Shown here piece by piece: positions 27,241-31,410 of a stretch of DNA of 42,720 nucleotides. Within the stretch, counting starts at the first letter, position 1; every line of letters starts with the position of its first letter. A model generated the notes under the pieces. It worked only from the letters and a program-made list of their open reading frames with translations, made no database searches and was not told the DNA's origin. This DNA is from Thermoleophilia bacterium (GTDB taxonomy: Bacteria > Actinomycetota > Thermoleophilia > BMS3ABIN01). A program made the translations under genes and the position numbers. Location: positions 1 through 42,720 of the forward strand of contig JACWAD010000059.1 of the NCBI GenBank assembly GCA_014874175.1. The letters run 5' to 3'.

Positions 27241-28455
27241 TTAGTTCGTCGGCCTTTGGCCAAGCGTCAGATCAGCGTCACGGGAATCCTTGCTGCGCGT
27301 GTAAGTCACCTTGATTTTGTCTCCCGGCTTTTTCTGAACCAGGTACGCCGTGATATCATCCATCGAGCTCATTGCATGACCATCGATTGCCGTAATGATG
27401 TCTCCCTGCTTAAGGCCGGCCTTTTCCGCCGGGCTGCCCGACTGCACCTCGGTGAGGAGCGCGCCGTGGGCCACGGAAAGCCCCTGCGTTTGGGCGAGAC
27501 CCTTGTCCACCGTCTGGCCGACGACTCCCATAAAGGCGTACTGTACATGGCCCGTCTTGATTACCTGGGCCTCGACCTGCTTGGCGATATTGATGGGCAC
27601 CGCGAAGCCGACGCCTTCAGAGCCGCCACTGGTGGTTGCGATCTGCTCGCTAAGGCCGATAACTTCGCCGCGGGAATTAAACAGGGGGCCGCCGCTGTTG
27701 CCGCGGTTGATGGCGGCGTCAGTCTGGATGGCGTTATTGATGGTAAACCCCTGCTGGGGCGATTCAACTGTGCGGTTAACCGCGCTTACGACTCCCGCAG
27801 TCAGCGAGCTCGAGTAAACGCCAAAGGGGCTGCCAATGGCGACCACGGGCTCGCCCACCTGCACATCATTTGAATCGCCCAAAACTGACGGCACCAAATT
27901 GAGTCCCGCCGGATCCACTTTCAGCACGGCCACGTCGCTGCTGGTGAGATCGTAACCGACAACCTGAGCCTGGGCGGTCTTGCCGTTCTTGAACTTTACC
28001 TGGACCTTGGAAGCTTTTTCCGCCGGGCCCCCCAACCCGCCCTGGCCGAGCCCCCCCTGGCCGCTTCCAGTATTAGCGATCACGTGAGCATTGGTGAGAA
28101 TGTAACCATCCTTGGACACCACAAATCCGGAGCCGATTCCCTGTTCGGCCGGCTGCTGGCCCATGTTGAAGATATCACCCTGTCCGCTCTGGCTCTGGAA
28201 GGTGGAATCGATCTCAACGGCGGAATCGCCATACTTCTGGAAAATCTGCTGGGGGGTCATGTTTGCCCCGGACGGAGCCGGCGCCTGCGTAAATTCCTGC
28301 GGCGCCGAGGCCGCGGTCTGCGCCGGTTGCGATGTGCTGGCAGCCTCCTTGCCGATGCCGCCAATATGGAGGGCAAAAGCAATCAGGAGGAAGATAGCCG
28401 CCCCGGCGACTCCTGCCGCCGTGCTGTTAATCAGGCTGAGGATCTTGTCTTTCAT
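27241..28455 (-). CDS. htrA: HtrA/DegP-type serine protease with PDZ domain
   Basis: 404 residues. An N-terminal membrane helix (about 10-32) anchors the protease outside the cell. A Pro/Ala-rich linker follows. The trypsin-like triad is H124 (TNAHV), D174 (SSDVAVL) and S254 (GNSGGP), and one PDZ domain covers about 300-395 (LTEVQSGSPAEKAGLKQGD). The loop after His124 is Gly/Gln-rich (GQGGLGQGG). It degrades or refolds damaged extracytoplasmic proteins. It lies next to a histidine kinase and response regulator, an arrangement seen for mycobacterial pepD with mprAB. Confidence 0.95.
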   Translation of the reverse strand: MKDKILSLINSTAAGVAGAAIFLLIAFALHIGGIGKEAASTSQPAQTAASAPQEFTQAPAPSGANMTPQQIFQKYGDSAVEIDSTFQSQSGQGDIFNMGQQPAEQGIGSGFVVSKDGYILTNAHVIANTGSGQGGLGQGGLGGPAEKASKVQVKFKNGKTAQAQVVGYDLTSSDVAVLKVDPAGLNLVPSVLGDSNDVQVGEPVVAIGSPFGVYSSSLTAGVVSAVNRTVESPQQGFTINNAIQTDAAINRGNSGGPLFNSRGEVIGLSEQIATTSGGSEGVGFAVPINIAKQVEAQVIKTGHVQYAFMGVVGQTVDKGLAQTQGLSVAHGALLTEVQSGSPAEKAGLKQGDIITAIDGHAMSSMDDITAYLVQKKPGDKIKVTYTRSKDSRDADLTLGQRPTN

Positions 28456-28469: not shown

Positions 28470-28527
28470 ACAAAAATGAGCGCGGCACGTTAATATTGCT
28501 GTCAATGCTCTTGGCCGGACTGTAACC

Positions 28528-28591
28528 ATTATACCCGCTTCGCACAAAACTCCAATATAGAACTGGTTAAGAGAAGTTAAGAAATGTTAAG
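28528..28591 (-). promoter_or_regulatory. htrA promoter with three 10-bp-spaced TTAAC boxes
   Basis: On the minus strand TTGGAG (28555-28550) and TATAAT (28533-28528) are 16 nt apart, a good sigma-70-type promoter. Directly upstream, GTTAAG (minus strand CTTAAC) occurs at 28566-28571, 28576-28581 and 28586-28591, exactly 10 bp apart. Tandem phased repeats of TTAAC are typical of OmpR/PhoB-family regulators (Bacillus Pho boxes are TT(A/T)ACA). The adjacent response regulator is therefore the obvious candidate. Confidence 0.6.
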
Positions 28592-28646: not shown

Positions 28647-30425
28647 CTATAGGGAAGCGCCAGCCCGCGCCGCTGAGCCGTTGGCCGGCAGGGTTACAGT
28701 AAAAACAGCGCCTCTATCCGCGCATTCTGCCACAATACTGCCATTCATCAATCGAGTAATTTCGTAGGCAATGGAGAGGCCCAGGCCGGTTCCTCTTACC
28801 CTGCCGGCGCTGCGGCCGCGGTAGAACCGCTCGAAAACGCGGGGCAATTCCTCCTTCGGGATGCCCGGACCCTGGTTGGCCACCGTGAAGCTGACCGTCC
28901 CGCCATTGGCGCTGCCGCGGACGGTTACCGTTGAATGCGGTGGCGAATATTTTAGCGCGTTGTCCAGCAGGATTCTGACTAGCTGGGCCGTCCGGTCCCG
29001 GTCGCAGTTTGCCGCCAGATCGGCGGGCAGACTGCCCGTGTCAACGCGGGAGTCGCTATTTACCTGCCGGGCGGCAAACTCCCTAGCGACGGAATCGACA
29101 ACCTCCCTGATCTCCACCCGGCCGGCCTGGACGCTCATTGCGCCCGAATCCATCCGGGACAGATCGAGCAGGTCCCGAGCCAGGCCGGCGAGCCGCTCCA
29201 CCTGCTCCCGCATGGTAGCAACAAACTCCTTCTTGGTCCGCTCTTCGACGTCCTCGTCCTGCAGAATCTCCAGGAACCCGCCCAGCGAGAACAGGGGCGT
29301 TTTTAACTCGTGCGAGGCATTGGCAATGAAATCACGGCGGGAACGCTCCAGCTTCACCTCCTGGCTCACATCCCGGACGACAATCAGGGAAGACAACTCC
29401 GCCTGGTCGGAAAGGAAAGAGCTGCGCACCGCCAATGCCTGCTCTCCTTCCAGCATAAAAGTATCCTCGCGCAGCGGGCTGGCCGCGCTCATCGAGCTCC
29501 AGAGATCATAAATCTCCTCCGGCACGCACTGGCCAAGGGGCGCCGGCGGCTCGATCTGCTTGTTCAGAAGCTGCTCCGCCGCCGGATTAGCGACGATCAC
29601 CTGGCCAGCCGTGTCAATGCCAATCACGCCCTCGCTCAGGTCATCAAGCAGAAGCTTGGCCCGCCGCTTCTCCACATCAATCCGCTCGAAGGCCGAGCCC
29701 AGCTTGTCGCCCATGTCATTGAAAGCAACGGCTAACTGGCCCAGCTCGTCCTGAGACCCCACCTGCACCTTGGTAGCAAAATCACCATGGGCTATCTGCA
29801 ACGCGCCCGTCTCGATACCCCTGACCCGCCGCGCCAGGAAATGAGAGACAAGATAAACCGCCGCCAGCGCCAGCACTAGCGCCAGGCCCGCCGCTATGGC
29901 CAGGAGTCTCTCCACCAGCGAGACCGCCGACTCAACACCACTCATGGACTGGGACACCACGATAACGCCAACGACTCGGGTGCCGCTCGCAACAGGCACC
30001 GCTGACATGGCGTATTTTCTGCCATCGCTCAGGTTGACGACATCTGTGAGTGGGCTGCGCTCGTAAATGGCGCTCCTGGCGATGGAATAATCATTGGGAT
30101 TGTAAGCCTGGCCCTTGAGAGAGTCCGCCAGCAAGTTGCCAGCGCCGTCCATAAAAAGGATGCGGGCGTCGGCCTTTTCCGCGTATTCCTGTGTAAGCAG
30201 GTCAAGGTAAACGGACGAAGCGCCCTGGTTCTGAGCCGCCAGAAAGCTCTCGGAGAACAGGCCGGCATATCTGCTGACGTCCGATTTTTTCTGGTTGGTG
30301 AGATTATTCTCAAGCTGAGGAACAACGGCCAGGTAAATAATAGCCACTACCATCACGAACACAAGCGAAAAGATAAGACTGAGGCGAACGGCGATGCTGA
30401 ACCGGATTTTATTTAAAAGAAACAT
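28647..30425 (-). CDS. Sensor histidine kinase, PhoR-like (HAMP-PAS-HisKA-HATPase)
   Basis: 592 residues. Membrane helices at about 12-35 and 173-195 flank an extracytoplasmic sensor domain of ~135 residues with a Cache-like pattern. HAMP (about 198-250), PAS (about 255-355), HisKA with the phospho-His H372 (FIANASHELKTPL), and HATPase (about 470-585, DNALKYSPP, GPGIP and GTGLGLSI). This order matches PhoR. The CAGGA ribosome site is 5 nt before the ATG. A hairpin (GGGCGCG/CGCGCCC, about 30464-30483) lies between it and the response regulator. The signal is unknown: phosphate and envelope stress are both possible. Confidence 0.92.
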   Translation of the reverse strand: MFLLNKIRFSIAVRLSLIFSLVFVMVVAIIYLAVVPQLENNLTNQKKSDVSRYAGLFSESFLAAQNQGASSVYLDLLTQEYAEKADARILFMDGAGNLLADSLKGQAYNPNDYSIARSAIYERSPLTDVVNLSDGRKYAMSAVPVASGTRVVGVIVVSQSMSGVESAVSLVERLLAIAAGLALVLALAAVYLVSHFLARRVRGIETGALQIAHGDFATKVQVGSQDELGQLAVAFNDMGDKLGSAFERIDVEKRRAKLLLDDLSEGVIGIDTAGQVIVANPAAEQLLNKQIEPPAPLGQCVPEEIYDLWSSMSAASPLREDTFMLEGEQALAVRSSFLSDQAELSSLIVVRDVSQEVKLERSRRDFIANASHELKTPLFSLGGFLEILQDEDVEERTKKEFVATMREQVERLAGLARDLLDLSRMDSGAMSVQAGRVEIREVVDSVAREFAARQVNSDSRVDTGSLPADLAANCDRDRTAQLVRILLDNALKYSPPHSTVTVRGSANGGTVSFTVANQGPGIPKEELPRVFERFYRGRSAGRVRGTGLGLSIAYEITRLMNGSIVAECADRGAVFTVTLPANGSAARAGASL

Positions 30426-30487: not shown

Positions 30488-31198
30488 TTACTGGATATCC
30501 CTGAATTTATAGCCCGCGCCCCGTACTGTAAAAATATACTCGGGGTCATGAGGGTCCGGCTCGATCTTTTCCCGCAGGTGACGGATGTGCACGTCTACGG
30601 TTCTGGGATCACGGAAATCTGCATCTCCCCAGACCAGCTGCAGCAACGCTTCTCTTCCGAACACGCGCCCCGGATGTCCGACCAACGTCTTCAGCAGCTC
30701 AAACTCCTTGTAAGTCAAATCAACCTTCTCGTCGCCAACATAGACATTCCGCTTGGGGAAATCGATGCGCAGCTTCTCCAGGTCGACCACTTCCCTGGCC
30801 AGCTCGGCGGGCCTGCCCGCCATCCGGGCCCGGCGCAGCTGCGCTTTTACCCGGCTGCGAAACTCCCTGATGCTGAAGGGCTTGGTGATGTAATCATCAG
30901 CGCCGATCTCAAGCCCCAACACCTTGTCAAACTCATCGGACTTTGCCGTGAGCATAATAATTGGAACAGTGCTCTCGGTCCTGATTACCCGGCAGACATC
31001 AATGCCGTTCATGCCGGGAAGCATAATATCGAGAACAACAAGATCGAACTGCTGCTGATGAAATTTCTCCAGCGCTTCTTCGCCGTCGCGCGCCTGGACT
31101 ATTTGATATCCTTCTTTCTGCATAGGATAAGTAAGCAATTTCTGGATTGCCTCCTCGTCGTCAACCAGAAGTATCCTCGGAGCATTGCTTTCGTTCAA
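30488..31198 (-). CDS. OmpR/PhoB-family response regulator
   Basis: 236 residues from TTG at 31198, with GGAGG 7 nt upstream. The receiver domain has the acidic pair DDE near residue 13, phospho-acceptor D57 (VVLDIMLPG), T/S and K in MLTAK and ITKPF. The C-terminal winged-helix DNA-binding domain is marked by YKEFELLKTLVGHPGRVF and RTVDVHIRHLR. Class-wise these proteins dimerise on tandem half-sites 10-11 bp apart, matching the boxes at 28566-28591. It lies upstream of the kinase in the same operon. Confidence 0.95.
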   Translation of the reverse strand: MNESNAPRILLVDDEEAIQKLLTYPMQKEGYQIVQARDGEEALEKFHQQQFDLVVLDIMLPGMNGIDVCRVIRTESTVPIIMLTAKSDEFDKVLGLEIGADDYITKPFSIREFRSRVKAQLRRARMAGRPAELAREVVDLEKLRIDFPKRNVYVGDEKVDLTYKEFELLKTLVGHPGRVFGREALLQLVWGDADFRDPRTVDVHIRHLREKIEPDPHDPEYIFTVRGAGYKFRDIQ

Positions 31199-31311
31199 AT
31201 TATTACCTCCATGAACCTACCGCTGCAGGAAGCCGCCCGGTGCTTGTCATTTTGCGTTTATCCCGCGGCGCGACAGAGGCCTTGCCATGAGTAAACAGGC
31301 CTGTATATTTG

Positions 31312-31340
31312 ATTTTAGACCCCGTGACCGTATGCGACAA
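31312..31340 (-). promoter_or_regulatory. Promoter for the response-regulator operon
   Basis: Minus-strand TTGTCG (31340-31335), 17-nt spacer, TAAAAT (31317-31312). Both hexamers and spacing match the vegetative consensus. The TTG start lies about 115 nt downstream, so the leader is long. Confidence 0.5.
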
Positions 31341-31410
31341 GGAAAAACCCGAATATAATCATCCAGTTTTCTGAGAGCAACCGGAAAAATGATGCACATT
31401 CCCGCGGTCT

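Follow-up and report, generated by a model that had tools for sequence, protein, structure and literature searches.

Three copies of one hexamer, spaced exactly 10 bp apart, stand upstream of an htrA gene in the window, that is, the whole stretch of 42,720 nucleotides analysed here. Are they an operator, and if so, which regulator uses it and for what? The sequence-only reading had taken them for tandem half-sites of an OmpR/PhoB-class regulator encoded next to them, and had placed htrA in a Pho-like or envelope-stress regulon. We compared the locus with its relatives, with the Pho-type sites of the same bacterial family and with known two-component systems.

The box array and the htrA promoter

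The three GTTAAG hexamers are present on the plus strand at 28566-28571, 28576-28581 and 28586-28591, and read CTTAAC on the coding strand of htrA, which is the minus strand. Box 1 (28586..28591) is the farthest from the gene, followed by box 2 (28576..28581) and box 3 (28566..28571). The promoter described earlier as facing htrA was found as well, with a -35-like TTGGAG at 28555-28550 and a -10 TATAAT at 28533-28528, both on the minus strand and separated by a 16-bp spacer. On the htrA strand the succession is TTAAC-ATTTC-TTAAC-TTCTC-TTAAC, then TTGGAG, 16 bases and TATAAT, with 32 bp between the end of box 3 and TATAAT. If transcription starts near 28521, as predicted, boxes 1, 2 and 3 would have their TTAAC cores at about -69 to -65, -59 to -55 and -49 to -45. 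The ATG of htrA, at 28455, is downstream of TATAAT.

The array was then sought elsewhere by pattern searches, a check that had been suggested together with the original observation. In the window, a search for the 15-base core that tolerated 2 mismatches gave a single hit, with 0 mismatches (shuffle mean 0.02). Over the 1.78-Mb genome, TTAAY-N5-TTAAY-N5-TTAAY with at most 1 mismatch recovered the htrA array as the sole match, and the reversed-pattern control gave 0. When an 18-base form was allowed up to 3 mismatches, the whole genome yielded one further degenerate match, and the control also yielded one.

Genes of the locus

On the minus strand, the locus runs from the response regulator through the histidine kinase and the boxes to htrA. 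The regulator gene (30488..31198, 236 aa) encodes an OmpR/PhoB-class protein with Response_reg and Trans_reg_C domains, the presumed binder of the boxes. It is followed by a WalK-like sensor histidine kinase (28647..30425, 592 aa; HAMP, HisKA, HATPase_c) and by htrA (27241..28455, 404 aa), a trypsin-like protease with a PDZ domain (Pfam Trypsin_2, PDZ_2) that scores below the cut-off of the Do-family model. The boxes had been said to lie next to the regulator. A regulator of the announced class does belong to the locus, but it is not directly adjacent to them, as the kinase gene (28647-30425) intervenes.

Against NCBIfam, the best model for the regulator is RpaB (262.9 bits, cut-off 330), followed by YycF/WalR (260.8 bits, cut-off 340) and MtrA (252.1 bits, cut-off 300), and the best model for the kinase is WalK (325.7 bits, cut-off 725); all these scores fall under the curated cut-offs, so that neither protein is assigned to the families concerned. 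Among solved structures, MtrA and RegX3 are closest to the regulator, whose recognition-helix string, PRTVDVHIRHLREK, is identical in all family members. No boxes were found upstream of the regulator gene, which is therefore without an autoregulation signature. Wal operons have likewise been reported to be without autoregulation (PMC9210968).

The segment just upstream of the regulator gene (31199-31410) shows a variation of its own. Most relatives have a coding gene that ends just ahead of the regulator gene and contains a promoter-like TTGTGG...TACAAT. In the window's own genome (G000) and in G001 this gene has apparently been lost, and a similar stretch (GTCTAAAATC / GTCTACAATC) is still found upstream of the regulator gene.

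Conservation of the array in relatives

The locus was retrieved from relatives with the histidine kinase as query. Family loci whose contig continues past the kinase gene were read without any pattern selection, and three boxes precede htrA in them. Overall, all 17 readable family genomes, which span six genera, have three TTAAY boxes with an exact 10-bp period; one of the 17 (G008, locus L023) was counted through a composite pattern search rather than through the unselected reading. Two more genomes, G011 and G015, were left out of the count, their contigs stopping short of the htrA promoter. The array sits at a contig edge in G007 and the contig ends within the leader in G017, so that linkage to htrA itself is not visible in these two. 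Comparison of the htrA upstream region in relatives, also proposed at the outset, hence finds the boxes conserved, and they withstand the refuting condition named there, a lack of conservation among relatives. Box 1 is TTAAY in every readable family genome, box 2 is TTAAC or TTAAT in relatives, and box 3 is an invariant TTAAC in 16 aligned promoters.

The composite pattern allowed the distance from box 3 to TATAAT to vary from 28 to 36 bp. It was found in 16 family genomes, each time with exactly 32 bp, and in none of the 380 genomes searched elsewhere in the class. In G006, the boxes are present and the distance to TATAAT is 44 bp. Among the aligned promoters, information content is 1.89 bits per column over the boxes, with a pairwise identity of 0.94, compared to 0.33 bits and 0.31 for the 15 bp just upstream of them. 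TATAAT reaches 2.0 bits per column, and in the -35 position TTGG hardly varies; as the rows were picked by pattern, these values describe the geometry and the divergence of the flanks, the proof of conservation being the unselected reading. The array is a strong phylogenetic footprint.

The order regulator-kinase-htrA is kept across the family, and also in 7 of the 8 loci from f3, a different family within the class, where the regulator is about 69% and the kinase about 38-40% identical to those of the window. With an identical recognition helix and htrA downstream, f3 nevertheless lacks the triple array, which counts against the reading proposed below. Weak two-box resemblances in the intergenic regions of some f3 loci only were not counted as evidence. 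With the order kept and the triple array absent in f3, the array is a family-level feature superimposed on an older gene cluster.

In sister genera (L015-L022), the 5′ leader of htrA has a predicted fold of two stems, one of them TCGGGTGGCTTGGTCGGCCACCCGA. The window's own genome showed no such fold.

A probable tandem operator upstream of htrA

OmpR/PhoB-class regulators bind direct repeats head to tail, and a 10-bp period places the protomers on the same face of the helix. The htrA upstream region has both parts of such a system: direct repeats about one helical turn apart in each readable genome of the family (17/17), and a regulator with receiver and winged-helix domains encoded in the locus (30488-31198). 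The fixed geometry throughout the family, together with the synteny of regulator, kinase and htrA, supports the initial proposal of tandem half-sites for a regulator of this class. We think it probable, from the sequence evidence, that the boxes form a tandem head-to-tail operator through which a response regulator, most likely that of 30488-31198, activates htrA upon envelope or secretion stress. By gene order and class, the regulator of the locus appears the likeliest binder. We infer the binding itself, the activation of htrA and the nature of the signal.

The series of events could be as follows. An envelope or secretion-stress signal would lead the WalK-like kinase (28647-30425) to phosphorylate the regulator, protomers of which would bind one helix face at about -49/-45, -59/-55 and -69/-65. 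The bound regulator would recruit RNA polymerase to a promoter having a good -10 and a weak -35 (TTGG, 16-bp spacer), and HtrA protease would be made. The boxes being upstream of a weak -35 and a consensus -10, the arrangement suits activation. A more specific proposal, of which we are rather doubtful, is that regulator and kinase would make up a nearly dedicated htrA switch in this family: a WalR/RpaB-class system with one invariant target, three half-sites, an odd number of protomers and an exact 10-bp spacing, told from Pho-type arrays, which can share TTAAC, by helical period and placement in the promoter.

Other explanations start from the same boxes. That they are a chance A+T-rich repeat to which no regulator binds is hardly conceivable: two-box TTAAC repeats do arise at near-background rates, but boxes and geometry are kept in six genera despite diverging flanks and are absent from the 380 other genomes of the class, so that the footprint contradicts a chance origin. 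A genuine OmpR/PhoB-class operator might also be used by a response regulator other than that of the locus. The genome is rich in related proteins, with 24 matches to the regulator, among them an MtrA-like one (G000:C104) whose best model is MtrA, a family whose cut-off the locus regulator does not reach; moreover MtrA-type regulators control actinobacterial cell-wall genes (PMC6265350). Gene order, however, ties the regulator and kinase of the locus to htrA in two families, and the MtrA-like protein has a different recognition helix; we consider binding by another regulator rather unlikely. Alternatively, the boxes might serve a repression of htrA that ends once the bound regulator changes its phosphorylation state, in the manner of RpaB at HLR1 elements near start sites. 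RpaB, the best-scoring model for our regulator, is an activator or a repressor depending on position (PMC11633204). Repressing sites overlap the core promoter or lie close to the start, whereas all the htrA boxes are upstream of the -35, which is moreover weak, and repression thus seems unlikely.

The remaining alternative is a Pho box, with htrA as a member of the phosphate-starvation regulon under a PhoB/PhoP-type regulator. The cyanobacterial SphR Pho box consists of at least 3 tandem CTTAACCT repeats of 8 bp with a 3-bp linker, hence an 11-bp period, and targets phosphate genes (PMC1906773). Its half-site is the CTTAAC of the htrA boxes, also in at least three tandem repeats, and some Pho-type sites of the family itself use TTAAC half-sites. 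The two kinds of array nevertheless differ. Upstream of pstS-like genes of the family, the half-sites are TTCAC, TTAAC, TTTAC or GTAAC with an 11-bp period; for the pstS-like gene of the window's genome (L152, near 5744 on the minus strand of G000:C103) the series is TTAAC-TTCAC-TTTAC-GTAAC, at the same period and without a -35. In the window's genome as in relatives, such arrays with mixed TTCAC/TTAAC/TTTAC boxes lie beside the -10 and lack a -35, whereas the htrA array is always spaced 10/10 bp, stands 32 bp from TATAAT in 16 of the 17 genomes, and keeps a -35-like TTGG. Family pst loci, furthermore, carry a response regulator within the same cluster; that of the window's genome (G000:C103) has PhoB as best model and a recognition helix different from that of the htrA locus, and it is this protein that is linked to the phosphate-uptake genes. 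Because the htrA array differs in period, box number, placement and neighbouring regulator, we judge Pho control highly unlikely and rejected the Pho box assignment. Of the Pho-like or envelope-stress regulon suggested by the sequence-only reading, the envelope-stress direction is retained and the Pho-like one abandoned.

Comparison with known systems

The order regulator-kinase-htrA, found in the window, in the family and in f3, also corresponds to the order mprA-mprB-pepD of M. tuberculosis. MprAB is an envelope-stress two-component system of Actinobacteria having the HtrA protease (PepD) as a direct target and controlling htrA in C. glutamicum (PMC12113857). Our locus resembles it in that its two-component system, presumably of this type, would have HtrA as a target. 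The MprA site at C. glutamicum htrA, TTTTCAGCAA, the single example compared, is unlike the TTAAC array (PMC12113857). In Streptomyces, CutR activates htrA3 from a site at -62 (PMC12802291). CutRS is thus another two-component system in which the regulator activates an htrA gene from upstream, and the htrA boxes are likewise upstream of the -35, but the CutR motif is TAWATAAA, without a three-box array.

As to the operators, the cyanobacterial HLR1, bound by RpaB, is made of direct repeats (G/T)TTACA(T/A)(T/A)NN(G/T)TTACA(T/A)(T/A) with a 10-bp period (PMC11633204). The htrA array has this period, and the regulator scores best with the RpaB model; HLR1, however, has two TTACA where htrA has three TTAAC, the score of 262.9 bits is under the cut-off of 330, and phylum and target are others. 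The WalR box is TGTWAH-N5-TGTWAH, with an 11-bp period (PMC4168254). Direct hexamer repeats, an envelope-controlling regulator-kinase pair and a kinase closest to the WalK model recall WalR (YycF) of Firmicutes, but the htrA array has three boxes at a 10-bp period and does not fit the WalR consensus: on the plus strand, TGTTAA occurs at the box at 28586 only.

The htrA three-box site is new, and the kind of operator is already known and ordinary in its class. An uncultured actinobacterial family gains with it a concrete, testable regulatory site for an envelope protease. This one family also has two operator types able to share TTAAC, which differ in period (10 versus 11 bp) and in promoter placement, and the pair is a natural test of target discrimination by spacing in OmpR-class regulators.

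Other TTAAC sites in the family

The htrA array is the only family-wide site that we found, other candidate targets being few or limited to some lineages, and this also counts against our reading of the array as a stress-responsive operator. Exact two-box sites at 10 bp are few per genome, modestly above the reversed-pattern control. One of them, TTAAC-N5-TTAACTTGAC, lies just after a CAP-domain gene in 4 genomes (L132, L135, L136, L144). Another, TTAACATAAGTTAAC, is upstream of a gene for an SLT-domain secreted protein in two (L139 in G000:C12, L140 in G004:C25), and a third is near a TPR gene in 2 genomes, with TATAAT 31 bp on. Two-box sites near CAP, NlpC/P60, SLT and TPR genes are suggestive of an envelope regulon, a hint that falls short of establishing one.

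Some details of these loci were recorded in passing. In three of the four CAP-domain loci, the site is followed by an NlpC/P60 hydrolase gene and, on the opposite strand, by a tRNA-like stretch, and the G000 copy of the SLT-domain gene is split over two frames. A two-box site of G003 with the htrA geometry, before a PPIase/SurA-like lipoprotein gene, was discarded as a target, orthologues being without the site. A four-box CTTAAC array of G010 and G006, considered as a second target, was discarded too: it actually precedes a Pho-linked, small-RNA-like element.

This element, of about 100 nt, is conserved in 8 family genomes (L169, at G010:C10:288905-289017, and L170-L176). It matches no Rfam family. 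It contains a G+C-rich inverted repeat, with a T-run in most copies; ahead of the element stand tandem TTAAC half-sites, with a period that is mostly 11 bp, and a -10-like box. In 6 of the 8 genomes it is near the cluster of pst genes and PhoB-like regulator, on the same contig. These features suggest a small RNA under Pho control.
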